From positions 1 to 22,626 of IMG/VR virus record IMGVR_UViG_3300014932_000464: a DNA stretch of 22,626 bases; one strand, written 5' to 3'. Numbering within the stretch: the first letter of the stretch is position 1; each line of letters starts with the position of its first letter. The notes beneath the pieces are model-generated. The model did not search any database and had not been told where the DNA came from. It saw only the letters and a program-made list of their open reading frames with translations. Positions 4,292 to 22,599 of the stretch are shown here, in pieces. Made by a program: the position numbers and the translations under genes. The DNA comes from a virus.

Positions 4292-4321
4292 AAAGCCCTT
4301 CGTTTCTACGAGGGGCTTTTT
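4292..4321 (+). terminator. Strong intrinsic terminator after endolysin
   Basis: AAAGCCCTTCG (4292-4302) pairs with CGAGGGGCTTT (4309-4319), one G-U pair included, around loop TTTCTA. T residues run from 4317 to 4321. It ends the fibre-lysis transcription unit. Confidence 0.85.
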
Positions 4322-4332
4322 ACTGTCCTTTC
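4321..4332 (+). promoter_or_regulatory. 12-bp conserved leader motif, copy 1
   Basis: TACTGTCCTTTC, identical to the copies at 11804 and 19795. It directly abuts the terminator T tract and lies 16 nt before the ATG of the protease gene (31 nt before an in-frame GTG at 4364). It is likely a phage promoter or leader element; the function is inferred from position. Confidence 0.55.
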
Positions 4333-4348
4333 GTAGAATTTTTAGTTA

Positions 4349-5224
4349 ATGAAAATTTGTATCGTGGAAGTAAAAAATCTTTTAAGCATTTTAAACAAGC
4401 CCTGGGCAATTGAACCAATTGCTGCAGATTATTGGTTAGGTATTGGTTATGAAGTTTTATACAACGGAAAAACTTTTGCCAGTGTAGCTACAACTAATAG
4501 AAAAGGAACCGGCGATTACCGGGTTAATCCAAAAGGCGAAGAAGATAGAAACGGATCCGTACAGATCATTGAAATTAATGGCCCAATAGCTAAATACGAT
4601 ATGTGTTTTACTCCGGGTGCACAAACATTGCAACAGCAAGTACGTACCGCCAATATGGATGCAAGTATTGCAGCTATTGTTTTGGTTATTGATAGTCCGG
4701 GCGGACAAGTGGATGGAACAGAAAATTTAGCTAATGAAATTGCTGCATCTAAAAAACCTGTTGTGGCATTTGTGGATGGAATGATGTGCAGTGCAGCTTA
4801 TTGGATTGGAAGTGCCGCTAACGAAATTATGGTAGATAATGCCAATAACGGACATAATGCAACCATTGGAAGCATTGGCATCATGGCTACCTGGAATGAT
4901 AATACCAAGGAAAAAGAAATGAAAGGCATTAAAACACATATGGTGTATGCCGATGCCAGTACCGATAAAAATGCAATAATGCAACAAGCTAATAGTGGTG
5001 ATTATACGGCCATTAAAAAACAGTTGAATGCATTAAACAATACATTTCTTTCTGCAGTACAAAATAACCGTGCGGGTAAATTAAGTAGTAAAGAAAATGT
5101 ATTAACCGGCAAAACATACAATGGCAATCAGGCTATACGATATGGTTTGGCAGATAGATATGGCAATTTTCAAACTGCAGTATCGCGTGCCTATTTTTTA
5201 AGCAAAAACCCATTAAAAAAATGA
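4349..5224 (+). CDS. Prohead maturation protease, S49 (SppA/ClpP-like) family
   Basis: 291 residues. It shows the ClpP/crotonase-fold landmarks of S49 peptidases: VLVIDSPGGQVDG (111-123), the nucleophile region FVDGMMCSAAYWIGSAA with candidate Ser148, and IGSIGI (173-178). A general-base Lys is expected roughly 50-60 residues after the Ser; K207 in ASTDKN is the best candidate. The canonical S-G-G-Y is S-A-A-Y here. S49 phage proteases such as lambda gpC cleave the scaffold and capsid during procapsid maturation. Position directly before the scaffold (ATGA overlap) and capsid genes supports this. ATG 4349 is chosen; GTG 4364, giving a protein starting at EVKNLL, is possible and would equalise the distance to the upstream 12-bp motif. 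Confidence 0.85.
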   Translation: MKICIVEVKNLLSILNKPWAIEPIAADYWLGIGYEVLYNGKTFASVATTNRKGTGDYRVNPKGEEDRNGSVQIIEINGPIAKYDMCFTPGAQTLQQQVRTANMDASIAAIVLVIDSPGGQVDGTENLANEIAASKKPVVAFVDGMMCSAAYWIGSAANEIMVDNANNGHNATIGSIGIMATWNDNTKEKEMKGIKTHMVYADASTDKNAIMQQANSGDYTAIKKQLNALNNTFLSAVQNNRAGKLSSKENVLTGKTYNGNQAIRYGLADRYGNFQTAVSRAYFLSKNPLKK

Positions 5225-5820
5225 AATACGAAAATTTAACTATCGAGCAATTAAATACCATAGCAGCATCTTATAATGCTGAAAATATTGCCATTCCGGA
5301 TGCATTATCTGCAGCTATTGATGCCAAGAAAAAAGAAGTGAAGGATGATGATATGGATGATGATGACGATGATGAAGAAGATGATGATAATGATGGCGAT
5401 GGTAAAAAAAAATCTGCCTTTGCGCATATTGCTAATTTAACACCCACCGGCGAAGAATTTATTGAAGAGGCATTGAATGAAGGTGTATGGATTACCGGTA
5501 CACATTTAACAGCTATTGAAGCTGCTTTGGCAACTGCTAAAAAAGAAGCTAAGATCAATGCTAAAAAATTGATGGTAAAAGACAATACCATTAAAACCCA
5601 AGAGCAAAATATTACTGCATTACAAACCAATGTTGATGCATTAAAAGCAGAAAATAAACAATTAAAAGAAAGTGATGGAACAATTGCAGCAACTGTTGCA
5701 GCAGATGTTGATGCAACAGTGGTTACGGATTCTGAAAAAATGAGCCGTGAGCAATTGGCAAAAGCAGAAACCAAGTGGGATAAAGAAATGAAGCAGATTT
5801 TAAAAATAAAAAATTCTTAA
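5221..5820 (+). CDS. Head scaffolding protein candidate, acidic and coiled coil
   Basis: 199 residues. It overlaps the protease stop by ATGA. An N-terminal helical part (1-40) is followed by an almost uninterrupted Asp/Glu tract (42-60, nt 5344-5400, built of GAT/GAC/GAA codons) and then KKKS. A region (65-98) contains LTPTGEEFIEEALNEGVW, and a long heptad-bearing helix spans about 100-151. The C-terminus is charged and basic. Small size, extreme charge, coiled coil, and placement between an S49 protease and the capsid protein are the usual signs of a scaffold that is degraded during maturation. No specific family is recognised. An alternative is a minor head protein. Confidence 0.66.
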   Translation: MKYENLTIEQLNTIAASYNAENIAIPDALSAAIDAKKKEVKDDDMDDDDDDEEDDDNDGDGKKKSAFAHIANLTPTGEEFIEEALNEGVWITGTHLTAIEAALATAKKEAKINAKKLMVKDNTIKTQEQNITALQTNVDALKAENKQLKESDGTIAATVAADVDATVVTDSEKMSREQLAKAETKWDKEMKQILKIKNS

Positions 5821-5858
5821 AAAAAGTAACCCATTAATAAACAATAAAAACAATAACT

Positions 5859-6752
5859 ATGGCAACTCCTGATTTGTCGCTACTCTCTTCCCAATTTGTG
5901 GAATTTGGCGGCCCTATTTTTGGCAAACACGTTGTAGATTGGGATTTAAAATCTACAGGTGTTCAGGTTCGTACAAACGTAAATGCCCCACAAGCACTGG
6001 TGAAGATCAGCGCATTGGGTGGCCCAAAACCATACGCCACAGCGGATGAAACAAGTGGTAATGGTGCAAAAATGACTGATCAAATTCTTACTGCTTATCA
6101 AAGCAAGTGGGATTATGATTTTGATCCTGAACAATTCCGCAATACCTATTTGGCAAATGCTGATGGAAGCCCATTCTATCAACAAGCTATCAGCCAGGTA
6201 GCAAGAGAGTATTTAGCAGCAATTGTAAATAATACTTTGGGCAGTGGTGTAAGAAACGGAAGCGGTACATCAGCAGCAGATTTATGCAACGGCTGGTTAA
6301 CAGAAATTGCCACATTAATCAGTGGTTCTGTAATTACCCCAATTACAACCGGTGCAATCACCTCATCTAATGCGGTAACAAAGATTGATACCATGAAAGT
6401 GGCATTGCCAACATGGTTAAAACAATATGGTGCCATCTTCTATTGTTCGTACAGCGTATTTGAAAACTATGCTGCACACTACAGAACATTGAATGGCTTT
6501 AAGTTCGAGCCACGCATTACCGGCGATTATCCAATTGATAACACCAAACACGTTTTACGTCCGGTGTCATGGTTGGGTAGTTCAAGCCGAGTTATTGCAA
6601 CTATTGCAAACAATTTGGTATTTGGTACTGATATTGAAAGAGTACAATTGTATGCCACACCTTATCGCAACATCATTAAAGTTCGTCAAATGATGCCTGT
6701 GGGTTGTGCCATTCAAGACACAGAAGCTTTGTTTGTAAACGATCAAGCGTAA
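5859..6752 (+). CDS. Major capsid protein (HK97-fold candidate)
   Basis: 297 residues. Evidence is position and overall character. It directly follows the protease and scaffold genes, has an A-rich leader (5821-5858), and is followed by a strong terminator, as expected for the most abundant virion protein. The sequence is mixed alpha/beta with no signal, membrane span or coiled coil. It has a central helix-rich stretch (SPFYQQAISQVAREYLAAIVNN) that could be the spine helix of the HK97 fold, and beta-rich C-terminal segments (AIFYCSYSVFENY; YRNIIKVRQMMPVG). Similar length and layout occur in capsid proteins of Bacteroidota siphophages. No N-terminal delta domain is visible, consistent with a separate scaffold gene. 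Confidence 0.75.
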   Translation: MATPDLSLLSSQFVEFGGPIFGKHVVDWDLKSTGVQVRTNVNAPQALVKISALGGPKPYATADETSGNGAKMTDQILTAYQSKWDYDFDPEQFRNTYLANADGSPFYQQAISQVAREYLAAIVNNTLGSGVRNGSGTSAADLCNGWLTEIATLISGSVITPITTGAITSSNAVTKIDTMKVALPTWLKQYGAIFYCSYSVFENYAAHYRTLNGFKFEPRITGDYPIDNTKHVLRPVSWLGSSSRVIATIANNLVFGTDIERVQLYATPYRNIIKVRQMMPVGCAIQDTEALFVNDQA

Positions 6753-6766
6753 TTTAATCAACTAAT

Positions 6767-6794
6767 AAAAGCCCTGTATTAAACAGGGCTTTTT
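6767..6794 (+). terminator. Intrinsic terminator after major capsid gene
   Basis: A perfect 11-bp stem AAAAGCCCTGT (6767-6777) / ACAGGGCTTTT (6783-6793) encloses loop ATTAA, followed by T and an A/T tract. It lies only 12 nt before the next start codon, so read-through, or a promoter elsewhere, must feed the downstream genes. Confidence 0.85.
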
Positions 6795-6806
6795 AAAAAA
6801 TTTATT

Positions 6807-7115
6807 ATGGAATTAAATCTTGAAGAACTGCAAAAAAGCAACGAAGAATTAAAAGCAGAAAATGCTAATCTTTTAAAAGCCAACGAAGCATTAACATTAG
6901 AAGTAGAAAAATTAAGCAGTGCCCCACAAAGTGCAACACCTGCACCGGCACAATTAAGTAAAGCTACTTTTAAATTAGGTGCCGATGAGTATGGTTTTGC
7001 TTATCCGGCTGTAATGCATAATGGCGAAAAAATTACTGCAGATCATGTATTGGCCAGTGAGGATTTGCAAAAAGAATTGGTTGAAATTCAAAGCGGATTT
7101 TTAATTAAAAAATAA
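6807..7115 (+). CDS. Small head/neck protein with N-terminal coiled coil
   Basis: 102 residues. Residues 1-37 are a Glu/Lys/Leu heptad coiled coil (LEELQKSNEELKAEN), then an Ala/Pro linker (SAPQSATPAPAQL). A compact C-terminal domain (KATFKLGADEYGFAYPAV...) of about 50 residues ends in LIKK. The order between capsid and tube genes suggests a head-completion, decoration or assembly role. The C-terminal domain is not recognised. The gene begins just after the capsid terminator and is thus likely expressed below the capsid level. Confidence 0.65.
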   Translation: MELNLEELQKSNEELKAENANLLKANEALTLEVEKLSSAPQSATPAPAQLSKATFKLGADEYGFAYPAVMHNGEKITADHVLASEDLQKELVEIQSGFLIKK

Positions 7116-7147
7116 ACAACAAACATTAAACTTTTAAATTCTTTTTT

Positions 7148-7693
7148 ATGAGTGAATTATATGCGCCATATCCGATTGCCAAAGTAAGCGGACAACAGGC
7201 AGGTTATCGCAATAATGCTTGGATAACATTAAAAGAATGGATTACTACCGAAGTAGTACCAACACCAAGCGGATCGCCGGTAATGGGCGATAATTACAAA
7301 ATAGCTACGGGCCATACATGGGCAAGTGGCAAAGGTGCCATACCTATTTATTTATTTCCTAAAACAGCAGAGCAACAAGGCGAACTAGCGGGAGATCAAG
7401 GCGCAAAAATTATTGTGTACAAACCAAAAATTATGGTGGCTGGCGATAATGCCGCTGTAACCGAATTATTGAACAACATTTTGAATAAAGAAGTATTTAT
7501 TTTCATGCAAAAAGCCGATGGAACGGTTGTACAATTTGGCGATGGTGCTTTCCCTGCGCACTTAGACAGTGGTGCAAGTACCAGCACTGTTTTTGCAAGT
7601 GGTAAAGCAGGCACAGAAATGATTTTCGAAAGTTTTGTAAAGTATTATTATGTACCGGGTGTAGATGGTATTACCGAATATCCGGGATCTTAA
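7148..7693 (+). CDS. Major tail tube protein candidate
   Basis: 181 residues, beta-rich, no signal or membrane span. Recognisable stretches include GDNYKIATGHTW, GAIPIYLFPKT, a VYKPKIMVAGD segment, a QKADGTVVQFGDGAFPAHL segment and GKAGTEMIFESFVKYYYVPG near the end. This arrangement (DADG-VQ-G-x-x-x-PA followed by a KxG-x-E/T beta hairpin) is what I associate with tube-like proteins of Bacteroidota siphophages. The gene is two before the tape measure and is followed by its own terminator, as is common for abundant tube proteins. If correct, hundreds of copies form the tail lumen. Another structural role near the head-tail joint cannot be excluded. Confidence 0.62.
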   Translation: MSELYAPYPIAKVSGQQAGYRNNAWITLKEWITTEVVPTPSGSPVMGDNYKIATGHTWASGKGAIPIYLFPKTAEQQGELAGDQGAKIIVYKPKIMVAGDNAAVTELLNNILNKEVFIFMQKADGTVVQFGDGAFPAHLDSGASTSTVFASGKAGTEMIFESFVKYYYVPGVDGITEYPGS

Positions 7694-7717
7694 ATAACTA
7701 ACCCTTTTGAATAAACC

Positions 7718-7753
7718 AAAAGCCCTGCCCGGTAAATGGGCATGGGCTTTTTT
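7718..7753 (+). terminator. Intrinsic terminator after tail tube gene
   Basis: AAAAGCCCTGCCC (7718-7730) pairs with GGGCATGGGCTTTT (7738-7751), with one bulged T, around a 7-nt loop; T residues continue to 7753. It ends 4 nt before the next ATG. Confidence 0.8.
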
Positions 7754-7757
7754 ATTT

Positions 7758-8132
7758 ATGAATTACGATAGCATAAACGATATTATTACCAATAAAACAG
7801 CCAACCTAAAAGCAAGGTTAAAACAAAGCATTGCTGCCAATAATATACGCCACACCGATACTTTATGGGATGCCGAACCACTAAGCAATATAAGCACCCG
7901 ATTAAGCCGCCAATTTGGAATGGTTAACCGAATACGTATAAAATTTAAACGCAGTGGCGTATTTGTGAGTAAAGGTGTGGGCCGTGGTACCAAAGCCGGT
8001 CAAGTAGGTACTACTAACCGGCAGGCAAAAGATTGGTTTAACCCGGTAGTGGAAGAATTTACGGATGAACTGGCTAATGAAGTGGCAGATGAATTAGCAG
8101 ACATAACTTTTAATTCAATAAAAATTAAGTAA
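7758..8132 (+). CDS. Tail completion/neck protein candidate
   Basis: 124 residues from ATG 7758. The frame is open further upstream to a TTG at 7707, but that extension reads through the terminator hairpin and is rejected. A short helical N-terminus is followed by RIRIKFKRSGVFVSKGVGRGTKAG, a basic glycine-rich segment recalling HK97 gp10-like and related tail-completion proteins. The C-terminal helix is acidic (EEFTDELANEVADELADI). It sits between tube and tape-measure genes and its stop overlaps the next start by one base (TAATG), indicating translational coupling. The role could be neck assembly or tail chaperone; no ribosomal-frameshift chaperone pair is seen here. Confidence 0.65.
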   Translation: MNYDSINDIITNKTANLKARLKQSIAANNIRHTDTLWDAEPLSNISTRLSRQFGMVNRIRIKFKRSGVFVSKGVGRGTKAGQVGTTNRQAKDWFNPVVEEFTDELANEVADELADITFNSIKIK

Positions 8133-11122
8133 TGGCACAACAAACAAAATCGGTTAGCAGAAGTATATATTTAGATACACAAGCTGCACAGGTGCAGATG
8201 CAAAATTTAGTGGCTGCCGGCGATAAGTTGAAAATGAAAATTAATGAGGGCGAACTGGCCGGCAAAAGCATGATAAAAGAGTTGGGTAAATTGAACGAGA
8301 TTAATAGTAAAATTAAAAGTGTTCAAGATCAATTAGATAGCGGATTAAAACCAACCCTGCAACAGCAACAAAATTTGGTACGCCAATTAAATAACGAATT
8401 GGCAAGAATGAGCGAAAATAACCCTGCTTTTAAAGAAAAAGCGGCTATATACCAAAAGCAGAACAAAATATTACAACAAATGCGCAGCCGCATACAAGGT
8501 GTTAGAGATGCGCAAAAAGAATTGAATGATCACACAACAGGATTCGGTAAAGTATTTACACATGTGGCCGAAGCGGCTGCCAGTTGGTTTGCCATTGAAA
8601 AGGTAGTGGATGGTGTAAAAGATGTTTTTAAAGAAAGCATTGAAGTGGCGCAACATGCCGAAGAAAGTTTTAGCCGGCTGCAAAATATATTGCACAATAT
8701 TGGGCGTGAAGATGTATTACCACGCATTCAGGAAAATGTAGAAAATTTATCTAAAAGTTTTAAATATTTAGAGCCTGCCGATATACAAGATGCGTTTACC
8801 AAATTAATTACTTACGGTAAACTAACCGAAAGGCAAATTAATGATTTGCTGCCTGTAATAATAAATTTTGCCGCACAACAAAAAATAACTGTACCGGAAG
8901 CCACAGGCATTTTTACCAAAGCATTAGAAGGTAATGCACGTGCATTAAAAGAATATGGTATTAATATTAAAGATGGCCATGATGTTACAGAACGTTTTGG
9001 CATATTAATGACCGAATTAAAACCACGTGTAGAAGGTGCTGCTGATGCATTTGGCAAAACCATGAAAGGGCAATTGGCGATTGCTAAACAGGAACTTCGT
9101 GAAACACAAGAACAAATTGGCAACGGGTTAATACCTGTATTAACCTCACTTTTAAAAGTAACAGTTTCTGCTATTAAAGGCATTGGCGATACGTTTTGGT
9201 TGGTGCAAAAAGTTACCAATCCATCTGCATATGCTTCTCATAAAGCAGAAGAAGCGCTTAATCAAATAAAAGAAAATAATGAAAAATACGAAAATGGTTT
9301 AATTGAATCTTACAGTAAAGACAAAAATGGTAAAGCACGCAGTAATGAAGAAATTGCAAAATTATTAGAGCGTGATAAGAAGTTTGATGAAAAACAAGCA
9401 GAATTAGCAAGCATTGCCGGTGATGTGCAAAAACAAGCGATGTATGAACAAAGCATTAAAAACACCGAAGCTGCTATTGAAAAATTAAAAGAACGTGCTA
9501 ACCCGGATTTAGATAAAGTGTTGGGTTTGGGTGCAGGCAAAGGTGATCAGGATGCGGCTGCAAAAAAATATGCAGAAGGCCGCAAACAGTTTCAGGATTT
9601 AATTGATAAGATGAACGAAAGTGTGGCAAAAGATACTTTAAGCCCAATGGAAGCGGCATTTGTACGCATTAATATAGAACTGAAAAAGAATATTGAGTTA
9701 ATTGAAGATTTTAGAAAACGTGGCATTATTACCAATAAAGAAGCCAGCACAGCCTTAGAATTAGCCCGTACCAAAGCATTAGAAGATAGCAATAAAGCTT
9801 ATAACGAAGCTGATATTGCCGCCAGGAAAAAACGCACAGGTACTATAAGCACACCACTGCTGCAGCTTAACGATAAAGATATTGAAACTGCTATGCGCCA
9901 ATTGGGCGATAAAGAGTTGGCTGCTGCCATGAAGGAAAGTAAAAGAATTATTGATGCTTTTAATAAAGATAAAAGTGCAGGTATAGAATTAGATGTTTTA
10001 AAATTTGGCACCAAAGGAACAGATCCCAACCGAAATAAAGAATACGAAGCATTAAAAGCGCAGTTACTGCAAAACGAAAAATTAGAATTAGATGCTGCCG
10101 GATTAACCGAAAACGAAAAGCAAGTTATTTACGAAAAGTATAGACAAAAAAGGCAACAGTTAGACGATGATTTTCAATCACAAACCATTAAAACTGTTGA
10201 ACTAAGTTTAGATTATGCCAAGCAAAGTTTGGGCATACTTTCTACTATTGATCATGCCAAAACAACCATGGAGAATAAGCAATTGGCATTACAAATGCGT
10301 AATGCAGATATTGCTAAAAACTATGTAAACCGATTAGAAGGGCAAAAAGTAATTACCAAACAAGAAGCCGCCGCACGCACTATTGCTATTGAACAAAATA
10401 TGGATAAGGCAAAACGCACTTTAGAGATGCAGCAGTGGGAGCGTAACCGTAAAATACAAATTGCACAGGCACTTGTTAATGGTGCAATGGGTATTACATC
10501 GGCATTAGCTGCACGTCCGGGTGCTGCAGATATTATTAGTTTGGGTGCATTCAGGGCCATACAAATTGCTTTTACCATTGCCACAACAGCTGCACAAATT
10601 GCAAACATATCTGCCCAAAAACCACAATTTGCACGTGGTGGTTATTTACCCGGCCCAAGCCATGCCGAAGGTGGATTGCCTGTAATAAACCCACGTACCG
10701 GGCAGGCAGTGGCAGAGGTAGAAGGTGGAGAAGCTATCTTAAGCAAAAACACGGTACGCAATAATAAAGGCATAGTAAGTGCCTTATTGCAAAGCAGCAT
10801 GTATTATAACGGGCAGCCTATTAATTTGCCGTGGGTAGGGCGTGGATATCAAAGTTTAGATTTTGCAGCAATTGGAAAAGGATATAAAAAATTTGCCACA
10901 GGCGGTATTTATGGCGATGTATCGAACCAGGGCAATGCAGATAATGCTGCAGCGCAATCTATTAATAACACCAACCAAATTAATGCTGCATTGGTACAAA
11001 CCATTAGTAATTTAACCGACAGATTAAACCAACCCATTAATACTTACATGACCTTAAAACAAATGAGCGATGCCAATACCAGACAGGCACAGATTTTGAG
11101 TAACGCTAAGATAAGTTCGTAA
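8132..11122 (+). CDS. Tail tape measure protein
   Basis: 996 residues, the largest gene. It is mostly alpha-helical and charged, with long coiled coils near the N-terminus (about 20-140) and centrally (about 390-720). The segment PEATGIFTKALEGNARALKEYGI (around 255-277) is typical of tape measures. A hydrophobic Ala/Ile-rich region (about 773-828) could insert in the host membrane on ejection. It is followed by ARGGYLPGPSHAEGGLPVI and EVEGGEAILS, also a common tape-measure signature. The protein sets tail length and helps DNA entry. With about 0.15 nm per residue as a rule of thumb, a tail near 150 nm would be expected. No lytic domain is evident. Confidence 0.9.
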   Translation: MAQQTKSVSRSIYLDTQAAQVQMQNLVAAGDKLKMKINEGELAGKSMIKELGKLNEINSKIKSVQDQLDSGLKPTLQQQQNLVRQLNNELARMSENNPAFKEKAAIYQKQNKILQQMRSRIQGVRDAQKELNDHTTGFGKVFTHVAEAAASWFAIEKVVDGVKDVFKESIEVAQHAEESFSRLQNILHNIGREDVLPRIQENVENLSKSFKYLEPADIQDAFTKLITYGKLTERQINDLLPVIINFAAQQKITVPEATGIFTKALEGNARALKEYGINIKDGHDVTERFGILMTELKPRVEGAADAFGKTMKGQLAIAKQELRETQEQIGNGLIPVLTSLLKVTVSAIKGIGDTFWLVQKVTNPSAYASHKAEEALNQIKENNEKYENGLIESYSKDKNGKARSNEEIAKLLERDKKFDEKQAELASIAGDVQKQAMYEQSIKNTEAAIEKLKERANPDLDKVLGLGAGKGDQDAAAKKYAEGRKQFQDLIDKMNESVAKDTLSPMEAAFVRINIELKKNIELIEDFRKRGIITNKEASTALELARTKALEDSNKAYNEADIAARKKRTGTISTPLLQLNDKDIETAMRQLGDKELAAAMKESKRIIDAFNKDKSAGIELDVLKFGTKGTDPNRNKEYEALKAQLLQNEKLELDAAGLTENEKQVIYEKYRQKRQQLDDDFQSQTIKTVELSLDYAKQSLGILSTIDHAKTTMENKQLALQMRNADIAKNYVNRLEGQKVITKQEAAARTIAIEQNMDKAKRTLEMQQWERNRKIQIAQALVNGAMGITSALAARPGAADIISLGAFRAIQIAFTIATTAAQIANISAQKPQFARGGYLPGPSHAEGGLPVINPRTGQAVAEVEGGEAILSKNTVRNNKGIVSALLQSSMYYNGQPINLPWVGRGYQSLDFAAIGKGYKKFATGGIYGDVSNQGNADNAAAQSINNTNQINAALVQTISNLTDRLNQPINTYMTLKQMSDANTRQAQILSNAKISS

Positions 11123-11152
11123 AAATTATTATATTAGCTTAAAATTGATTGT

Positions 11153-11710
11153 ATGAAAAAAGTGATTACTATTTTATTATTATTAGTATCAATCATTGTT
11201 AAAAGTCAGGATGATAAGGATTTGATAGATTTAATGAAAATACCACGTGATAAATCCGGTGAAATAATTTATACAGATGTTGTAAATATAGATTCGGCAA
11301 CTGCACAAAATTTATATAGTAGAGCAAAACTTTTTGTTGCCGATGTTTATAAAAGCAGTAAAGATGTTACACAATTAAATGATGATGTTGCAAAAACTAT
11401 TTTAATTAAACCCAATATAAAAAATCACATAAAATCATTTTTAGTAAACGACAATTGGGGATATACTTCTTATCAAATTTTTATTGAATGCAAGGACAAT
11501 AAATACAGATATACAATTTCAGGGTTTTATCATCACGCACCATCATCTATAAATAATTATTTAAGAGATGGGGGGATTTTATATAAAAATTCTCCAAAGG
11601 GGTATTCAGATAAAATATGGGCGCAGATTACATTACAGGCAAAAAATGAAATTGATGTAATTATAGATTTAATGCAAAAATTTATGAAAAAACCTATTTT
11701 AGATTTTTAA
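11153..11710 (+). CDS. Secreted DUF4468-type (TBP-like fold) protein, moron
   Basis: 185 residues. It has a signal peptide (MKKVITILLLLVSIIVKSQ, likely cut near KSQ) and a mature part with the pattern of DUF4468: DSATAQNLYSRAKLFVADVYKSSKDVTQLNDDV, then IKNHIKSFLV..., TSYQIFIECKDNKYRYTISGF. DUF4468 proteins are predicted periplasmic or exported proteins of Bacteroidota chromosomes with a TBP-like fold; their function is unknown to me. It is not expected in a virion. It sits between tape measure and portal modules, has a separate A/T-rich leader (11123-11152) and its own terminator, and looks more AT-rich and richer in Lys/Ile/Asn than its neighbours. These are the marks of an acquired moron gene, possibly altering the lysogen's envelope. 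Confidence 0.72.
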   Translation: MKKVITILLLLVSIIVKSQDDKDLIDLMKIPRDKSGEIIYTDVVNIDSATAQNLYSRAKLFVADVYKSSKDVTQLNDDVAKTILIKPNIKNHIKSFLVNDNWGYTSYQIFIECKDNKYRYTISGFYHHAPSSINNYLRDGGILYKNSPKGYSDKIWAQITLQAKNEIDVIIDLMQKFMKKPILDF

Positions 11711-11769
11711 AAAGATTGCTTTATCAGCTTTTACAAAATATTCCCAATCCACTACCGGTTAATTAAAAC

Positions 11770-11795
11770 AAAAGCCCCTGTAAAGGGGCTTTTTT
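11770..11795 (+). terminator. Intrinsic terminator after DUF4468 gene
   Basis: A perfect 9-bp stem AAAAGCCCC (11770-11778) / GGGGCTTTT (11785-11793) encloses loop TGTAAA and is followed by T residues to 11795. It isolates the moron from the portal block. Confidence 0.85.
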
Positions 11796-11803
11796 ATTGT
11801 TTA

Positions 11804-11815
11804 TACTGTCCTTTC
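11804..11815 (+). promoter_or_regulatory. 12-bp conserved leader motif, copy 2
   Basis: TACTGTCCTTTC, identical to the copies at 4321 and 19795. It is 8 nt beyond the moron terminator and 33 nt before ATG 11849. With copy 3 it also shares a flanking A on each side. Confidence 0.55.
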
Positions 11816-11848
11816 AAAGCTGGTTGAGGAATGCCAATTTTATGTTTA

Positions 11849-12163
11849 ATGGAAAGCATAAGCCTACAAAAAGTTATTGAAATAATGGATGGTAAACAAC
11901 CATTTAGTATTGCTTTTGTAACGGCGGACAGTAAAAAAGATAGCGGTGGCGAATGGATTTATATACCAAAAGCATGGAAACATGAATTTGCCACCCGAAA
12001 AGAAATTGCAGCAGCCCAAAACGCCGCACCGCGCAGCGATATGGTTCGCAAAAATCCAAATCATTATCAAAATAGTACCCGCAATTTGCGATTGCCTAAC
12101 GGCGAAATAAGAAAAGTGCATGTACGCCTGATTACTCAATTCAATAATCAAATTGTAACCTGA
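11849..12163 (+). CDS. Small protein of unknown function before portal
   Basis: 104 residues from ATG 11849; an in-frame ATG at 11831 would add six residues (MPILCL). I prefer 11849 because MESISLQKVIEIMDG starts a natural helix and the spacing to the 12-bp motif then equals that of copy 3. Recognisable pieces are KPFSIAFVTAD-type beta strands (QPFSIAFVTADSKKDSGGEW), an Ala-rich helix (KEIAAAQNAA) and a C-terminal KVHVRLITQFN strand. No family is named. Its stop overlaps the portal start (TGATG), so the two are likely co-translated. A head-vertex or packaging accessory role is possible. Confidence 0.68.
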   Translation: MESISLQKVIEIMDGKQPFSIAFVTADSKKDSGGEWIYIPKAWKHEFATRKEIAAAQNAAPRSDMVRKNPNHYQNSTRNLRLPNGEIRKVHVRLITQFNNQIVT

Positions 12164-13542
12164 TGGAAATTCATAACAATATTGGTTTTAGCTATCATAC
12201 AGGTGCATTATTTGTAACGGATATGCCCGGTTATGGTCAGGATGGAACAAAAGATTATGTGGCTGCCCCGCCACTGGATCTTACAGCCTGGCAATGGAGC
12301 CCCTGGGGTGGCCCAAGTAATAACTTATTGCCCATGGAAATTGCCAAGTATATTGAAACATGCGGCATACTTTCTGCAATTTGTAATTTAATTAGTATAA
12401 CTACTGTGGGTAAGGGTTTGCAGCCATTTTTATTAACCAATATTGGAGAGGATGGCAGCGAAGAAGTAAAGTGGCTGAACGATACCGAAATATTAGATTG
12501 GATTGAAGATAATGATTTGTTTAGCAAAGCAGCAGATTGGGCTTTTGACAAAGCAGCTTATGGATGGAAAGTAGGTACATTTATTTTGAATAAAAACAGG
12601 GATAAAATTAACCGTGTTATTCGCAAAGATGTATATGATGTAAGATTAGAGAAGAAGCCAATCGAGGGTGCCAATGCAGATGTAATTGGTAATATATTTT
12701 TAAGCAGCAATTGGGATAAAGTAGGTTACAACCCCGATACTAACAAATTAACAGGCGCATGGGTAATTAAAATACCGGCATTATTAGAAGGTAAAGAAAT
12801 TGAGGATTTAAAAAGCCGTAAAACCGGCTATGAATTTGCTTTTATTGACAGGCCACGCCGTAATGGTCGCCAATATTACCCATTACCATTATGGTGGAGT
12901 GCATTAGAGTGGGTAAAACAAGCCATTGAAATACCTAAACAAAAAAATGCCATTTTTAAAAATAGTTTGTTGCTGCGTTATGTGATAAACATTAATAAAC
13001 GCTTTTGGGAAGATAAGATTACCAATTGGAGTAGCTTAACAACCGAACAGCAGCAAACTAAAATTGAAGAAACTTATGATAATATTGATCAATGGTTAAG
13101 TGGAACGGATAACCAGGGCAAAAGTTTATTTGCCGGAACTTTTATTGAACCCGGTATTAATGAGCCCCTACCTTATGTAACCGTAACCAGTATAGACGAT
13201 AAATTTAAAGACGGCAAATTATTGCCCGATGCAACTGCAGCCAATGTAGAAATATTGATGGCCTGTTTAGTAAACCCCAGTTTTTTAGGTGCAGGATCTG
13301 TTGGCGGACAAAGCCATGGAAGCCAAAGCGGTGGTAGTAATATTCGCGAAAGTATTGCACAGGCTATTATGAATGCAGAACTGTATAGAAAAGAAATTGT
13401 AAACGTAATGCAAATGGTTGCTGAATTTAACGGATGGAATAAAAAATACAATAATGGGAACCAAAGATTGGTATGGCGTTTTCAATCATCCTTACTTACC
13501 ACATTAGATACCGGTAAGAGTACAAAAACTGAAAATCTTTAA
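12163..13542 (+). CDS. Portal protein
   Basis: 459 residues. Length, composition and layout fit a phage portal. An N-terminal part contains PMEIAKYIETCGILSAICNLIS (subunit clip and wing region), followed by a helix with AADWAFDKAAYGWKVGTFIL. Mixed beta segments follow with IDRPRRNGRQYYPLPLWW and an ALEWVKQAIEIPKQKNAIFKN helix. The last 100 residues hold ILMACLVNPSFLGAG, a Gly/Ser/His loop and a long helix (ESIAQAIMNAELYRKEIVNVMQM), as in the portal crown/stem region. It forms the dodecameric DNA gate to which terminase docks. It does not lie next to the terminase here; the block order is commented on separately. Confidence 0.75.
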   Translation: MEIHNNIGFSYHTGALFVTDMPGYGQDGTKDYVAAPPLDLTAWQWSPWGGPSNNLLPMEIAKYIETCGILSAICNLISITTVGKGLQPFLLTNIGEDGSEEVKWLNDTEILDWIEDNDLFSKAADWAFDKAAYGWKVGTFILNKNRDKINRVIRKDVYDVRLEKKPIEGANADVIGNIFLSSNWDKVGYNPDTNKLTGAWVIKIPALLEGKEIEDLKSRKTGYEFAFIDRPRRNGRQYYPLPLWWSALEWVKQAIEIPKQKNAIFKNSLLLRYVININKRFWEDKITNWSSLTTEQQQTKIEETYDNIDQWLSGTDNQGKSLFAGTFIEPGINEPLPYVTVTSIDDKFKDGKLLPDATAANVEILMACLVNPSFLGAGSVGGQSHGSQSGGSNIRESIAQAIMNAELYRKEIVNVMQMVAEFNGWNKKYNNGNQRLVWRFQSSLLTTLDTGKSTKTENL

Positions 13543-13544
13543 TT

Positions 13545-14507
13545 ATGCCACTTATTACAACAGCCGCACAGCTTCGCCAATATTGCCCCGGTATTACCTA
13601 TACCAGCCAATCAGCTTTAACGCTGCCTAATATGGATATTGCAGATGAACAATATATTATTCCCATTTTAGGGCAAACATTATACAATACAATTATTGCA
13701 GTTAGTACAAATGCAGATATTTTACGATTAAAAGAATTGTGCATGCGTGCAGTAGCACCATTGGCTATTATGAATGGATTGGCTACTAAACAATTACAGA
13801 TAAGTGATATGGGTGTACACAGCAGTGTAAGTGATACCACAACACCTGCAACACGTTGGGCTTATTACGAATTGAAAGAAAGTTTAGCCAATGCCGGTGC
13901 AGAAGCTTTGGAAAAAGTTTGGTTGCAATTAATTAATAATGCAAATACTTACGAATGGACTAATCCGCTACCATACAAAACTGTTTTTAGTGGTGGCGAT
14001 GATTTTAGCAAGTTCTTTAATGTACCCAAACCATATATTACATTCAGCGCATTAGCCCCTATTATCAGCGAAGTACAGGATGCTAATATTTACAACAATT
14101 TTGGGGAATCTTTTATTAATGCATTAATTGCTAAAACAACGCCCAATGCAAATGAATTGATTGCAATTCGTTTAATTAAAGCAGCTGTTGCCAATTTAAC
14201 CATTAATAGCGCCTGCAGTAAATTAAGTGCCCGTGTAACTGAAAAAGGTTTTACTGTTTTGATGGGTGATGGTGGCGATATGCCATTTAAGGGGCAAAAT
14301 GATAGCAGCTATACCTTAAAGCAAGATTTGAAAAATGTTACGGCACGTGATGGAATGCGATATTTAAGTGAACTTAAAAACTACTTAGATACCAATGCCG
14401 GTACAGAATTATTTGCCGATTATTATGCTAGCAGTTATTATACTGCACCATCCACAACCGTTAAAGAAAATCCCAATAAAAACAGAAGAGGTGTATTTGC
14501 ATTATGA
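13545..14507 (+). CDS. Head-tail connector/adaptor candidate with internal duplication (DUF6712-like)
   Basis: 320 residues. Two halves share a pattern: a helix near ADEQYIIPILGQTLYNTIIA (about 33-52) then LKELCMRAVAPLAIMNGL; and EVQDANIYNNFGESFINALIA then IRLIKAAVANLTINSA (about 187-226). The first halves end QISDMGVHSS and the second EKGFTVLM. This suggests tandem copies of a small helical domain, as in gp6/gp15-type connectors that sit under the portal. I recall this protein type in Bacteroidota phages under DUF6712, with moderate certainty. It follows the portal by two bases and overlaps the next gene by ATGA, consistent with a head-completion operon. Confidence 0.62.
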   Translation: MPLITTAAQLRQYCPGITYTSQSALTLPNMDIADEQYIIPILGQTLYNTIIAVSTNADILRLKELCMRAVAPLAIMNGLATKQLQISDMGVHSSVSDTTTPATRWAYYELKESLANAGAEALEKVWLQLINNANTYEWTNPLPYKTVFSGGDDFSKFFNVPKPYITFSALAPIISEVQDANIYNNFGESFINALIAKTTPNANELIAIRLIKAAVANLTINSACSKLSARVTEKGFTVLMGDGGDMPFKGQNDSSYTLKQDLKNVTARDGMRYLSELKNYLDTNAGTELFADYYASSYYTAPSTTVKENPNKNRRGVFAL

Positions 14508-15295
14508 TATACGCTTTATCATCATATAAAAAAGCATTTTATTTGGCAGAAAGTTTTAACGAACTATCTGCCAAACAATTATTTGCCATTACTAAAATCA
14601 GATCCTCTAAAATGGATGCCAATGAAGCTATATTGGCAGCACTGCGCATTTTATTAAAAATGCCTTTTATAAAATTTGCATTATTACCTGCAGAAATTAA
14701 AGAACGCTTATTGCCTTATGCAGAATGGGTATTTGGCGATAATACTTTAACACATCAATTACTACCCAAGTATAAAGGATTGTATGGACCCAAAAGCAAA
14801 CTGCTGAATTTGCGTATGAAAGAATTTCATGCCTGCGAAATGCGCTATAAAATGATACTTGACGGGGTGCCGGGTGCCATGGATGAATTGATTGCAATTC
14901 TGTACCGCCCCGGTAAGCCCCATTATGATTTAGGTGTAGATAAAGATGGCGATGTACGCATTGATTATAATGGCAATACAGTAGCAGCCCGTGCCACAGC
15001 CATTGCTAAATGGCCTATAGAAGTAAAACAAGCAATTGTATTTTTTTACGATGGTTGCCGAATGGAATTAATAAAAAACCATCCCATTGTATTTGATCAA
15101 AGCAATAATGAGCAAGGGTTTCAGCATGATCAATTTCATGGAATGTTTATGATGATGCGTGGTATTGCTGCAGATGGCAAGTTTGGTGATTTTGAAAAAG
15201 TTGAAAATTTGTACATGTACACTGCTTTAACGGAAGTTACGCAAATGCTGATAGAGCAAAAAAAATTAGAAGCACAAAGTGAAATAACTAATTAA
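14504..15295 (+). CDS. Conserved-looking phage protein, function unknown
   Basis: 263 residues, soluble and largely alpha-helical. The N-terminal region (YLAESFNELSAKQLFAITKI... ILAALRILLKMPFI) and the helix FHACEMRYKMILDGVPGAMDELIAILYRP lead to a short beta segment (VDKDGDVRIDYNG). The C-terminus has a Met/His-rich stretch (DQFHGMFMMMRGIAADGKFGDF) and a long helix. It is located between the connector and a small protein at 15298, where tail-assembly chaperones or tail terminators are common. No slippery frameshift site joining it to the next gene was noticed, as they are separated by two bases with a stop between. Not assigned. Confidence 0.66.
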   Translation: MIYALSSYKKAFYLAESFNELSAKQLFAITKIRSSKMDANEAILAALRILLKMPFIKFALLPAEIKERLLPYAEWVFGDNTLTHQLLPKYKGLYGPKSKLLNLRMKEFHACEMRYKMILDGVPGAMDELIAILYRPGKPHYDLGVDKDGDVRIDYNGNTVAARATAIAKWPIEVKQAIVFFYDGCRMELIKNHPIVFDQSNNEQGFQHDQFHGMFMMMRGIAADGKFGDFEKVENLYMYTALTEVTQMLIEQKKLEAQSEITN

Positions 15296-15297
15296 TT

Positions 15298-15819
15298 ATG
15301 AGTTTATATACTGATAGAAAAACATATTTTGAAGGATTGGCAGCAGCAGATCCGGTTATAAAACATGGTGTTGATGGAAGAGTAAGTTTTTTTACAGATG
15401 CTACAGAAGAAGCCTTACTTGCCGGCATTATTAATAAATGCGATCCGCCATTTGTTTGGTACGAAGGCCCTAAAGGAAATATGCAAGATGTGGCTGGTGG
15501 CTTAAACGAAAACATTACACACACATTACGCTTTTACAGCAAAGGAGTTGTAAATGATAGTGTGATAGATAAAGAAACGGCTGCCGAAAATGCCTATAAC
15601 GAAAGTTTTTTATTAGTGCAACATTGGATGCACCGCATAATTGCAGATGGATATAATGATGCCGATGGTGGTGCTTTTGATAATGTGGATATGGGTTCGG
15701 TTAATTACAGTAAAATGCCTGTGTTTAACGATTTTTTTTACGGTTGGCAATTACAATTTATAGAAGTAAAGATTGATATGGATTTTACTATTCCGGAACA
15801 AAATTATTGGACAGTATAA
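15298..15819 (+). CDS. Tail terminator/head-tail joining candidate, unassigned
   Basis: 173 residues, soluble. N-terminal RKTYFEGLAAADPVIKHG is followed by a beta-rich region with CDPPFVWYEGPKGN and a repeated F/Y-rich pattern. The C-terminal strand FFYGWQLQFIEVKIDMDFTIPEQNYW is of the kind seen at the end of tail-terminator-type proteins. Placement between connector-region and tail-tip genes is compatible with tail terminator, but the family could not be recognised. Starts ATG two bases after the previous stop. Confidence 0.62.
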   Translation: MSLYTDRKTYFEGLAAADPVIKHGVDGRVSFFTDATEEALLAGIINKCDPPFVWYEGPKGNMQDVAGGLNENITHTLRFYSKGVVNDSVIDKETAAENAYNESFLLVQHWMHRIIADGYNDADGGAFDNVDMGSVNYSKMPVFNDFFYGWQLQFIEVKIDMDFTIPEQNYWTV

Positions 15820-15828
15820 TTTTTGATA

Positions 15829-17415
15829 ATGAGCATGAAAGTAATAGAAAGGCCACCACAATTTTGTTTTAGTAAAAACGAAATAAGGTATGTATTTGGC
15901 TATGCTACACAGATTTACTGGAAAGATCATCAGCAAGATGGTTATGATAGTAATTTGTTTATTAAAAAAAGTGATGGTACTTTTTATGTTCAGGAATATG
16001 CCAATAATCAGGGAATTCAAGCATTAATACCAGGCGAAACCGTTACATTAATATTACCCATTTTTGATGCATGGCCCGATAGTAATGGTATTGCACATTT
16101 ATTGGTAAAAAAGGGTAATGATGTAGTATATGATGTAAGCACCAATAACCCAATGCCGGATGGATTACCTGCATTACAATATACATTTGTTGTTGAATCG
16201 GGTATTACATATTCCGTATGCGCTTCTGCAAGATTAAACACAAACGCAGATACAACCCCTTATGTACCGGCTGCAGAAAATAACCCATTTATTAAATTGC
16301 AATTGTGGTACAAAACCATTGGCAACGATACGCCGTTTTTACTAAAAACATTTACCCGATTACCTAATACAGATGGTAAAACATATGTGTATTTGAATAA
16401 TTTGATTGATAGTTTATTAGAATATGCATTACCCATTTTTTCTGATCAGCAAACAGATGCCAGCAGCGAAATGATTGCTTTTTATATTTTATGGGCAGAA
16501 GGCACCGAAGATGATTTAACACCTGCATTAAGTAACAGCGAAACAACGCATATAAGGTATGTTATTAAAGGTGGTATTGAAAGAAAAAAATACAGCCGTA
16601 ATAATTTTTTCAGAAACTATTTTAATACAGTAAAACCTTTTTTTACCTGGCAGCCTGATTATAAAATGGTGCAGATGAATGAGCCTGTTTTTATTACTGC
16701 ATTTGTTGCCGATAATACTTTAACAGGAAGAAGATTACGGATAGTAATTACCAAATTTGATGGCAGTACGGTAACGCATGATATTAACAGCTTTGCTATT
16801 GATGGCAAATTTTTATACCACTTAAATGTATCGCCAACATTTTTAAATTTAGTAACCCTTGCCAGTACTACCAATATTGCATCATACAGTGTTGCACTGC
16901 AAAACATAAGCGATGGAAGCAATGTAATTGCGCCAAGAACATTTATGATTGATTACCGCCCCGCTTATACTTATTATGATTTATTATGGATTAATAGTTT
17001 AGGTGGTGTTGATACCATACGTGTACGCGGTGATGTTACTGTTGGATTAAATAAAGATACTGCACAAGTAAGTGCCGGATTAGATTTAAACGATTGGAAC
17101 GCCACACAAAAAAAGGGTGATGTGGCTATACAGCGCAATTTGCGTAACGATTATTATAAAGGCGATATTGGTTATGTAGAAGATGATTGTGCACAAGATG
17201 CGCTGAAAGAAATTTTACAAAGCACACAAGTATTTATGCATTTAGATAGCCGCTGGGTTCCGGTAATTGGTTTACAACAAAGTGCCGATTTAAGAACCAG
17301 CAGCGATAAAAAATACAGTTTTGCCCTTGAATGGCAAATTGCTATAAGCGAAGAAACTTATACACCGGGTAATATTGCATTGGGCATAGTAACAGATGAT
17401 GAAACCTATAGTTAA
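15829..17415 (+). CDS. Large tail-tip/baseplate candidate, beta-rich
   Basis: 528 residues from ATG 15829; a second ATG at 15835 is equally usable, and the TTG at 15823 is less likely. The protein is beta-rich with Tyr/Asp/Asn, no signal or membrane span. Notable stretches are TWQPDYKMVQMNEPVFITAFV and FMIDYRPAYTYYDLLWINSLGGVDTIRVRGDV, a pattern I associate loosely with Bacteroidota phage tail-tip proteins. A C-terminal block contains HLDSRWVPVIGLQQSAD and YSFALEWQIAISEE. It is followed two to three codons later by the other large tail gene. Possible roles are distal tail protein or receptor-binding tip; unproven. Confidence 0.65.
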   Translation: MSMKVIERPPQFCFSKNEIRYVFGYATQIYWKDHQQDGYDSNLFIKKSDGTFYVQEYANNQGIQALIPGETVTLILPIFDAWPDSNGIAHLLVKKGNDVVYDVSTNNPMPDGLPALQYTFVVESGITYSVCASARLNTNADTTPYVPAAENNPFIKLQLWYKTIGNDTPFLLKTFTRLPNTDGKTYVYLNNLIDSLLEYALPIFSDQQTDASSEMIAFYILWAEGTEDDLTPALSNSETTHIRYVIKGGIERKKYSRNNFFRNYFNTVKPFFTWQPDYKMVQMNEPVFITAFVADNTLTGRRLRIVITKFDGSTVTHDINSFAIDGKFLYHLNVSPTFLNLVTLASTTNIASYSVALQNISDGSNVIAPRTFMIDYRPAYTYYDLLWINSLGGVDTIRVRGDVTVGLNKDTAQVSAGLDLNDWNATQKKGDVAIQRNLRNDYYKGDIGYVEDDCAQDALKEILQSTQVFMHLDSRWVPVIGLQQSADLRTSSDKKYSFALEWQIAISEETYTPGNIALGIVTDDETYS

Positions 17416-17424
17416 TTATTGAGC

Positions 17425-19794
17425 ATGTTAAGAATACAAATTGGCAAACAGTTTTTAGATTTATTACCATCTGCAGCAATTGAAATGCAGTTGAATAGCC
17501 CTTTATTTTTAACAGAAGCTATTTATGGCGATTACAGTGTTCCGGTGAATTTGCCTTATACTGAAAACAATGTTAGATTATTGGGTAATGTTTTTGATGA
17601 AGATGCAAAGCTTGCACAATATTATGATGCCCAGGTATTTGATGATACTAACTTTTTGTTTGGTTGTAAATTAATTTTAGATAAGCCCAGCCCGAACATT
17701 AAACATGCAGGTAAGGGAACCGTTGAAGGGTACTTATTGGGTGGCAACAGCTTGTTTTTTTATGAGATAAAATACCAACGTGTTGGACAATTACAATTAG
17801 GTGGCACACGAACTTTTGCTAATACCGGCTATAACCCATGGGATGGCAGCAGCGGTATATGGCAGCATTTACATGCAACATGGGATGGAACTTATGATTA
17901 TGTGTGTTTGCCATATATTAATGAAAGCGCTTCGGTGCACGATCCTACCAACGAATACAAAGATTATTTTGATACATTATTCAGCGGGTGGGCCAACCAA
18001 TTAGATTGGGGGCATTTATATGATGGTTTATTGTTTCACGAACCAGGTTATGATATTACTATTGGGCCAAGCAATTACGGTACTACTTATAATGATGTAA
18101 GAATGCGGCATAATGATATTGTGCCTGCACCGATATTATCTATTAAGGTAAAATTTATTATGGAGTGCATTTGCGCTGAAAATGGTTGGACTTTAGATAG
18201 TAGTTTAATAGATGCTGAAAACTTTGATAAATTATTAATGGTAGGCAATGTGCCCATTAATATTATACCCGACAGAATACCGGGAAGTGCCGGTGAATTT
18301 AAAAGCACCATTAGTTTTAATTTGGGTGCTTTAATAAGCCCCGAAATTACATGTACTGATTTTATAATGCAGCGTTGTAAACGTTATGGATGGTGGCCTA
18401 AAATTGATGCTGATAATAAAACAGTGCAGTTAGTGCCTTTAAAAAATATTAATATTCACTCTAAAATAAAAGATTGGACAAAATACGCAGATCCGCAACA
18501 ATTTTTTGATGCAACAGGTGGCATCAGAACTTTTGCTTTTAAAAATAATTTTCCGAATGGCGATAATTTTCCATCGCAACCAAAATTCAGCGATTATATA
18601 ATTGAACCACCTGTGGCCAGTGCAGAAAATTTACCTGCCGCCACTGCTTATTTTGATAACAGCCTTTGTTTATGCGAAAAAGAAAATGCATTTTACCATG
18701 TAGTGTATGATGAGGATTTACCATTGGCAACGGATCCTACACACCAAACATACAGCCGTAAATGGCAATGGTTTTGCGATAATATTTATGATGTTGCACC
18801 TGATAATACCAGTGATATCAATGAAACCAATGTTACCACCATGCCGCTACATTATACCCTTTACCGGGTAGATAATAGCGGCAATAAATATTATGGTGGT
18901 TTTTTACGTTGCGATATGAACCAACAACATAATTGGGGTATGCGTGATGTATTTTATTGGGGATTGGTTACCGAAAAAAAATTAGGATTAACGGTAACCG
19001 GATTTACTTATGCTGCGCAATACAATGATTATTTAAACACTTACGGATCTATAAATAAAAGTTTAACGAATGGTACATTAAGTTATCCATTTGCATCGCC
19101 AATACCATTATTGCCCGATGGAACGGTAACGGGTAATTGGGCAAATGTTTTTAAAACAGCTTCAACTTTATTTAAGGGAATAATTGATTATTGGTGGAAA
19201 CAATGGTTAAGTATTAATAGCAATGCTATAGCCAATACTGTTAATTTAAACCTGCCATTATTTGAATTAGTGAATTTGCAGTACGATAGCATTATTAACA
19301 TTAAGAATATTCCTTTTTTATTGAAACAGTTGGTATTACCTGTACCTTATAGAGGAACTGCACAGGCAACTTTACAGCCGGTTATTTTAGATAAAACAGT
19401 TTTACAACAAAGCAATATTCCATATAGCGGCCCTATTTATTTAAAAGTACAATGGGATATAACAACAATTACTTCTGATCCTTTATATGGAGATTATGGA
19501 GAAGTAAAAAGTGGTATTGCTAAAATATATGCATACCAAGATGCAGATGGAACCGTACCTGTAAGCCCAAATAATTTAGGCGTGTTTGTGTACAGAAAAA
19601 TTATTGCCACGCCCAATACAGCCAATTTGATTTATACCGAAAAAGCATTACTAATAAATATTAATGCACCTGTAACGGCCATTACTAAAGACGGACAGGA
19701 ATATTATAACTGGACAGATGCATTTGGTACTAATAATTTGGTACAATACATTATACAGGCAGATGATAATGCCGCTTATCAGGTAATAGATTAA
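17425..19794 (+). CDS. Large tail-tip/hub candidate
   Basis: 789 residues from ATG 17425; an in-frame TTG at 17419 would add two. Both this gene and the preceding one start in a TGAGCATG context. N-terminal residues LDLLPSAAIEMQLNSPLFLTEA, IYGDYSVPVNLPYTENN and a LILDKPSPN segment resemble the beginning of tail-associated or baseplate-hub-like proteins. The middle is Trp/Tyr/Asn-rich and beta-like (GIWQHLHATWDG; YDVAPDNTSD). The C-terminal third holds YDSIINIKNIPFLLKQLVLPVPY. No catalytic motif was seen. As the last tail gene before the terminase block, a tail-tip or adsorption role is the best inference. Confidence 0.66.
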   Translation: MLRIQIGKQFLDLLPSAAIEMQLNSPLFLTEAIYGDYSVPVNLPYTENNVRLLGNVFDEDAKLAQYYDAQVFDDTNFLFGCKLILDKPSPNIKHAGKGTVEGYLLGGNSLFFYEIKYQRVGQLQLGGTRTFANTGYNPWDGSSGIWQHLHATWDGTYDYVCLPYINESASVHDPTNEYKDYFDTLFSGWANQLDWGHLYDGLLFHEPGYDITIGPSNYGTTYNDVRMRHNDIVPAPILSIKVKFIMECICAENGWTLDSSLIDAENFDKLLMVGNVPINIIPDRIPGSAGEFKSTISFNLGALISPEITCTDFIMQRCKRYGWWPKIDADNKTVQLVPLKNINIHSKIKDWTKYADPQQFFDATGGIRTFAFKNNFPNGDNFPSQPKFSDYIIEPPVASAENLPAATAYFDNSLCLCEKENAFYHVVYDEDLPLATDPTHQTYSRKWQWFCDNIYDVAPDNTSDINETNVTTMPLHYTLYRVDNSGNKYYGGFLRCDMNQQHNWGMRDVFYWGLVTEKKLGLTVTGFTYAAQYNDYLNTYGSINKSLTNGTLSYPFASPIPLLPDGTVTGNWANVFKTASTLFKGIIDYWWKQWLSINSNAIANTVNLNLPLFELVNLQYDSIINIKNIPFLLKQLVLPVPYRGTAQATLQPVILDKTVLQQSNIPYSGPIYLKVQWDITTITSDPLYGDYGEVKSGIAKIYAYQDADGTVPVSPNNLGVFVYRKIIATPNTANLIYTEKALLININAPVTAITKDGQEYYNWTDAFGTNNLVQYIIQADDNAAYQVID

Positions 19795-19806
19795 TACTGT
19801 CCTTTC
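19795..19806 (+). promoter_or_regulatory. 12-bp conserved leader motif, copy 3
   Basis: TACTGTCCTTTC, identical to copies at 4321 and 11804. It begins at the first base after the TAA of the tail gene, with no terminator in front, and lies 31 nt before ATG 19838. Confidence 0.55.
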
Positions 19807-19825
19807 ATCGTCCGCTATCGTCCGC
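19807..19825 (+). repeat. Tandem ATCGTCCGC repeats upstream of terminase block
   Basis: ATCGTCCGC at 19807-19815 and again at 19817-19825, spaced by one T. A third exact copy lies at 22591-22599, after terL. GC-rich repeats in an AT-rich genome next to terminase genes could be an operator or a packaging-initiation element. Confidence 0.55.
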
Positions 19826-19837
19826 CATCTTTACCTT

Positions 19838-22587: not shown

Positions 22588-22590
22588 TCA

Positions 22591-22599
22591 ATCGTCCGC
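22591..22599 (+). repeat. ATCGTCCGC, third copy, downstream of terL
   Basis: Exact match to the two tandem copies at 19807 and 19817. It starts three bases after the terL stop, in the last intergenic bases of the window; the following gene is not visible. Confidence 0.45.

Follow-up and report, generated by a model that had tools for sequence, protein, structure and literature searches.

The stretch of viral DNA analyzed here (IMG/VR record IMGVR_UViG_3300014932_000464, positions 1 to 22,626; hereafter the window, 22,626 nt in length) contains three identical copies of a 12-bp motif, TACTGTCCTTTC, each of which forms the upstream part of a bipartite element that is also present before the late operons of related phages. 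Based upon their sequence, these sites are almost certainly promoters, and it is highly probable that the observations as a whole are best explained by a class of late promoters, shared by a wide range of Bacteroidota phages and driven by a new phage-encoded activator in conjunction with the host RNA polymerase. It is also likely that the activator of these sites is a small protein encoded at the junction of the early and late regions, as suggested by linkage in the genomes, by retrieval of promoter-bearing phages with the protein alone, and by co-variation with the promoter sequence; this protein will be referred to as the regulator.

The gene content of the window, a viral contig of 22.6 kb, is exclusively that of the late region of a tailed phage (lysis, fibre, head protease, capsid, tape measure, portal, tail, and terminase genes), and its terminase has distant matches in Flavobacterium, Cellulophaga and Porphyromonas phages. 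As reported in an initial annotation of this DNA, the three copies of TACTGTCCTTTC (Table 1) are exact, intergenic and in the same orientation; all of them are on the + strand and none is found on the − strand. The view that they are not due to chance also holds, as none was found in 100 dinucleotide shuffles. One other 12-mer likewise occurs three times in the window. Two of the copies lie directly behind an intrinsic terminator, as had been noted. The start codons, in contrast, had been placed 15–31 nt past the motif, but two of those used are located upstream of the predicted transcription start; with reannotated starts, which were chosen for agreement with homologs and promoter geometry, the distance from the end of the motif is 31, 33, and 31 nt (GTG 4364, ATG 11849, and ATG 19838, respectively). 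Scans with the sigma-70 consensus gave site counts that were fewer than, or not above, those in shuffled sequences.

A second element, overlooked in the initial annotation, is present exactly 19 nt past each of the window copies (boxes AAAATTTG, CAATTTTA, and CATCTTTA). The earlier statement that the motif does not match TAnnTTTG is thus correct for the 12-mer itself but misleading, as a TAnnTTTG-like box follows downstream. The window sites were aligned with those from relatives found by means of terminase/portal homology (records L001, L012, and L013; L and G numbers are our handles) or by a terminator plus the motif (L011). The resulting consensus consists of TGTCCTTTC, N19 and nAnnTTT(G/A), usually followed by 4 nt and the start codon, and the boxes in the relatives include CATTTTTG, TAGTTTCA, GATATTTG, AATATTTG, CACTTTTA, and CAATTTCA. 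By its sequence, the second element is TAnnTTTG, the -7 box read by the primary sigma factor of Bacteroidota (sigma-A), with a relaxed first position and at a fixed offset. In ten records picked independently of the box, nAnnTT is found at exactly offset 28 in 31 of the 39 late-strand copies of TGTCCTTT, whereas the mean for other offsets is 1.0 (6 at offset 29 and no more than 4 elsewhere); the opposite strand of these records contains only 5 copies of TGTCCTTT. Over a larger set of 89 sites, the frequency of the A in the box is 0.96, that of the third T 0.74 and that of the G 0.76, with the first T at only 0.34; this set was selected partly by the box, and the unbiased test is that of the 39 copies. 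The -33 TTTG of Bacteroidota sigma-A promoters is not seen at the expected position, where TTTC/A/T is found and G occurs in 7% of the 89 sites. The 19-nt spacer between motif and box is not conserved. A terminator-like hairpin fills this spacer, its T-run doubling as the -7 box, at 8 of the 89 sites (shuffled mean 2.75, maximum 7). Such fused terminator-promoter sites, which are suggestive only, are seen at G001 23531, G002 25540, G009 17540 and 22566, G020 19824, L157 33220, and L012 8691.

In relatives, where the initial annotation had proposed that the motif be sought, it is found at orthologous operon starts in phages with protein identities of 39–64%. It precedes the protease gene, the small gene ahead of the portal gene, and the gene ahead of that for the terminase small subunit. 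Individual records contain up to seven sites (seven in G002, six each in G010 and G012, and five in G011). In 25 contigs, 79 sites are on the late strand and one on the other; at this lone site (G005 35888), the gene that follows resembles the one at 19838 in the window and is itself on the opposite strand in G005. The pattern TGTCCTTTN21ANNTTY has 67 matches in 22 viral records, each selected for at least one match, as compared with one match for a reversed-pattern control. No enrichment was observed in a 7.3-Mb Chitinophagaceae chromosome (8 matches vs. 14 for the control), and the strict pattern gave 3 hits vs. 1 for the control in 399 genomes of the host order. One of these three (G263) is a prophage matching the viral record G004, another (G172) adjoins the regulator as well as late genes of a phage, and chance probably accounts for the third. 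The element is found before several late operons and not before early genes, and it is not enriched in host genomes, the distribution expected of an activator-driven late regulon. Of the roles suggested earlier for the motif, that of a phage-specific late promoter is thus strongly supported by orthologous conservation, fixed spacing to the box, restriction to one strand and to late operons, and lack of enrichment in hosts.

The candidate regulator was found by clustering every open reading frame of the promoter-bearing records, which yielded structural and replication proteins and a single small family located at the early/late junction. Its members are about 150–210 amino acids long, with an N-terminal PTKPYLxKYL and a C-terminal IxDFxxxYxIxEEDIxYDxLxRxxxRxR. 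In most genomes the first late promoter lies within about 500 nt of the end of the regulator gene, and the 46 sites of 13 records without circular permutation are all downstream of this gene, with none upstream. An AlphaFold model of the regulator (predicted local distance difference score 84, predicted template-modeling score 0.74) matches one viral protein well, an uncharacterized protein of Polaribacter phage Leef_1 (E 4e-7), which is gp39 (tblastn E 2e-8). Leef_1 carries TGTCCTTTT six times, on a single strand and before late genes only.

The pairing of regulator and promoter is also seen when the protein alone is used for searching. Such searches, one of which used an alignment of three close regulators, retrieved L150, L152, G427, and G099, all of which carry the promoter; in the first three of these it lies no more than 40 nt from the regulator stop codon and the start codons are at +40. 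The regulator is also found in gut phage MT835542 and Microcystis phage Mea-Yong924-1 by a profile built without these two, and both carry the promoter. The standard promoter is missing from Flavobacterium phage 6H, whose junction encodes a divergent form of the regulator, gp40 (E 1e-4); in this phage TGTCTTAAA is present exactly four times on the late strand (before gp39, the protease gene, gp23, and gp13) and not at all on the other, with the box 27 nt past it (28 for gp23). In G100, a divergent regulator is accompanied by TGTCGTT at two sites. The regulator was present in five loci with the right spacing and in none of 64 wrong-spacing control loci. In Mea-Yong924-1 (L153, MZ447863), the member of the regulator family is encoded at 8977–9450 and the sites are at 13088, 17597, 19632, and 28689; the true host of this phage is probably a Bacteroidota companion of Microcystis and not the cyanobacterium.

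A number of observations weigh against this interpretation. The window contig does not include an early region and hence its own regulator is not seen. Promoters are present but no regulator was detected in the near-complete G017 (40 kb) and in the partial records G010–G012, G018, G019, and G021. The first site is 3.6–10 kb past the regulator in G009, L153, and L157, no site is visible in G181 (5 kb), which has the regulator, and G112 ends just past it. Part of the linkage between motif and regulator could stem from shared ancestry of the late module. No recognizable DNA-binding family could be assigned to the regulator, which matches no profile of Mor/C, Ogr, other activators listed in Pfam, or sigma factors. 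Ten of its members gave nothing above cut-off in Pfam and searches of NCBIfam gave no match; those of PHROGs yielded only unnamed families at E 0.017 or worse, and neither sequence nor fold searches of PDB gave anything credible. A control scan of the viral collection with the wrong spacing (N15) gave 64 hits, as compared with 93 at the correct spacing. Lone matches in so large a collection are therefore mostly due to chance, and the evidence relied upon is that of records with several sites, of strand bias, of where the start codons lie, and of homology. The first scan of viral contigs, for a terminator plus the motif, similarly gave real sites (L011) mixed with chance hits.

The -7 box is located at -12 to -5 in F. 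psychrophilum (PMC9723704) and in F. johnsoniae it extends from T-12 to G-5, 4–5 nt before the transcription start (PMC6847099). These published positions place the predicted transcription start (+1) of the phage sites at offset 40 from TGTCC. A start codon is present at exactly +40 in 31 of 79 sites and at +39 to +42 in 38 of them; in the other 41, offset 40 is occupied by A in 59% and preceded by a pyrimidine in 74%. As the predicted start coincides with the start codon, about half of the late mRNAs (38 of 79 sites) are predicted to be leaderless or near-leaderless, and we consider it quite probable that many late mRNAs are indeed leaderless. The predicted leaders of the window sites are 0, about 2, and 0 nt in length. 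Among bacteria of this phylum, 5′ untranslated regions of <10 nt make up 3.7% in B. thetaiotaomicron (PMC7366714), leaderless mRNAs 5.5% in F. psychrophilum (PMC9723704), and leaders of >10 nt 87% in F. johnsoniae (PMC6847099). Start codons annotated by others in GenBank are found at exactly +40 for gp5 and gp46 of Leef_1 and for CDS 13128 of Mea-Yong924-1. For gp4 of Leef_1 (L155), the start predicted from the promoter adds 10 codons to the annotated gene and restores a signal peptide, MKKIFLLFCLMFMV; the annotated start is thus probably ten codons late. On the opposing side, in about half of the sites the start codon is at +43 to +80 or none is clear, and leaderless starts are therefore not universal. 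This promoter is also used by a second group of phages (G010, G011, and G012; L114–L118), in which start codons fall at about +50 to +73 and leaders are about 10–33 nt long, which indicates that leader length is a lineage trait.

In the mechanism that we propose, early transcription would yield the small phage protein whose gene lies where the early and late regions meet, and this protein would recognize TGTCC at about -40 to -36 together with its TAC and TTTC flanks. The bound protein would recruit or activate the host RNA polymerase carrying sigma-A, which would read the weak -7 box, and the first transcribed base, 5 nt past the box, would usually be the A (or G) that opens the start codon. 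Each of the late operons (tail fibre/lysis, protease-capsid, portal-tail, and terminase) has its own copy of the promoter.

Other explanations for these sites have also been considered. One of them, which is possible but rather unlikely, would make the junction protein a sigma factor of the phage, or a sigma-like subunit, reading both elements of the same promoter. Such a protein would account for the fixed spacing of the two elements and the strong conservation of the upstream one, and also for a -7 box that is looser than that of the host, in which the first T is not kept and G is tolerated at both middle positions. However, the regulator has no sigma domain by sequence and no fold match in PDB, and the -7 box still has the A..TTTG of the host consensus, placed as in host promoters. 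The existence of promoter-bearing records in which no regulator is detectable (G017 and the partial G010–G012) could instead suggest that the element is read by an alternative sigma factor, or a regulator, of the host, which the phages borrow, with the junction protein having some other role. We regard this as improbable, since the hosts show no enrichment of the element, either in the chromosome or in the 399 genomes, and the motif varies along with the phage regulator in 6H and G100.

The two remaining roles suggested in the initial annotation are further disfavored. It is very improbable that the motif is an RNA leader element that affects how each block's first gene is translated. Although its distance from the start codon is nearly constant in the window (31–33 nt) and it resembles in part the 3′ end of 16S rRNA, a spacing of 28 between motif and box is kept at many sites whose start codon is at +43 to +80, so the motif follows the box rather than the start codon. 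The motif is also located upstream of the predicted +1 and is separated from the box by the unconserved spacer. With translation thus disfavored, the likeness to the 16S rRNA, to which the initial annotation had drawn attention, is read as a coincidence. A linker or recombination site at module boundaries is scarcely credible; the copies do lie at the borders of operons and modules, but a linker would leave unexplained the fixed spacing to the box, the single orientation, and the fact that the sites are linked to, and vary along with, a single early protein, no association with a recombinase was seen, and the proposal is superfluous.

Table 1. Promoter elements and adjoining features in the window.
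Feature	Position	Strand	Remarks
Intrinsic terminator of preceding operon	4292..4319	+	Abuts the promoter
Upstream (-33 region) element TACTGTCCTTTC, copy 1	4321..4332	+	Predicted -43 to -32; orthologous site before protease gene: G001 16291, G006 6180, G427 10107
-7 box AAAATTTG	4352..4359	+	Exactly 19 nt past the element
Predicted transcription start	4364	+	First base of GTG, leaderless; inferred from published box position
Head maturation protease, gene 1 of late operon	4364..5224	+	phrog_53, E 7e-50; start given by open reading frame caller 4349; restarted by promoter geometry and homologs
Intrinsic terminator of preceding operon	11770..11793	+	
Upstream element TACTGTCCTTTC, copy 2	11804..11815	+	Orthologous sites: L001 1396, L012 1024, L013 9638, G002 21243, G427 19094
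-7 box CAATTTTA	11835..11842	+	
Gene 1 of portal/tail operon, restarted	11849..12163	+	Alternative ATG 11831 falls between motif and box
Upstream element TACTGTCCTTTC, copy 3	19795..19806	+	Begins directly after stop codon of preceding tail gene; orthologous sites: L001 8783, L012 8691, G004 33669, G002 18082
-7 box CATCTTTA	19826..19833	+	
Gene 1 of terminase operon	19838..20479	+	ATG is the predicted +1

Some other features of the window were also noted. GTCCGC repeats are present in the spacer of site 3 (19810–19825) and past the terminase gene (22590–22597). The equivalent spacer in L001, L012, and G004 contains GTCC/GGAC hairpins, and hence the window may hold a decayed terminator. A moron gene of the secreted type (11153–11710; phrog_4002, E 2e-19) lies between the tape measure gene and promoter 2. 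The C-terminal part of the product of 28–1005 (GTSDKRLKDT...) resembles, by eye only, an S74-type self-cleaving tail-fibre chaperone.

A phage late promoter with a dedicated activator is a known kind of system. No earlier description of this promoter sequence, of the protein family or of the predicted leaderless late mRNAs in Bacteroidota phages was found in the literature and libraries searched, the paper on the isolation of Leef_1 does not mention promoters, and late gene control in Bacteroidota phages appears to be largely undescribed. The chances are about even that the regulator represents a new activator family, unlike known activators and sigma factors in sequence and detectable fold, which controls late genes across several Bacteroidota orders (Chitinophagales, Flavobacteriales and probably gut lineages) and directs a largely leaderless late transcriptome. 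If so, such a transcriptome would exist within a phylum where leaderless mRNAs are rare. The promoter provides a sequence rule for predicting late operons and transcription starts, and it leads to corrections of start codons in the window (4349 to 4364 and 11831 to 11849) and in gp4 of Leef_1 (1878 to 1848). A candidate master switch is also named, in a protein family that lacks annotation, and leaderless late mRNAs are predicted for bacteria that do without Shine-Dalgarno pairing, a prediction that can be tested directly in the cultured phages Leef_1 and 6H. A promoter/activator pair of this kind could further offer an inducible system for use in a phylum where engineering is difficult.

In the middle promoters of phage T4 (MotA/AsiA), the box of a phage factor replaces the -35 element and the -10 element of the host sigma factor is kept. 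The promoters described here similarly have a phage box in place of the -35 element and retain the box of the host sigma factor; they differ in sequence, host and protein family, in preceding late rather than middle genes, and in that no AsiA-like partner was identified. The late promoters of phage Mu and their activator C provide another system for comparison (PMC4461284). As in Mu, a small phage activator would serve four late promoters of a temperate phage by way of the host RNA polymerase, the core elements are non-consensus, and the activator site is at or just upstream of -35. Unlike Mu, the regulator has no sequence relation or detected fold relation to C/Mor, the host phylum and sigma factor are different, the upstream element is a near-invariant block of 9–12 bp at a fixed distance, and leaderless starts are predicted. 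With the sigma-A promoters of Bacteroidota, which consist of a -33 TTTG and a -7 TAnnTTTG (PMC7366714, PMC9723704, PMC6847099), the phage sites share the sequence of the -7 box and the 4–5 nt from the box to the (here predicted) +1. In F. johnsoniae, host promoters show hardly any -33 motif (PMC6847099). In the phage sites, by contrast, TACTGTCCTTTC is strong and the box relaxed, and host mRNAs mostly possess leaders. Among cultured and annotated phages, Leef_1 (Helgolandviridae) contains a regulator homolog, gp39, together with the same promoter, TGTCCTTTT, and 6H (Duneviridae) contains the homolog gp40 together with a related late promoter, TGTCTTAAA, the regulator proteins of both being labeled as hypothetical.

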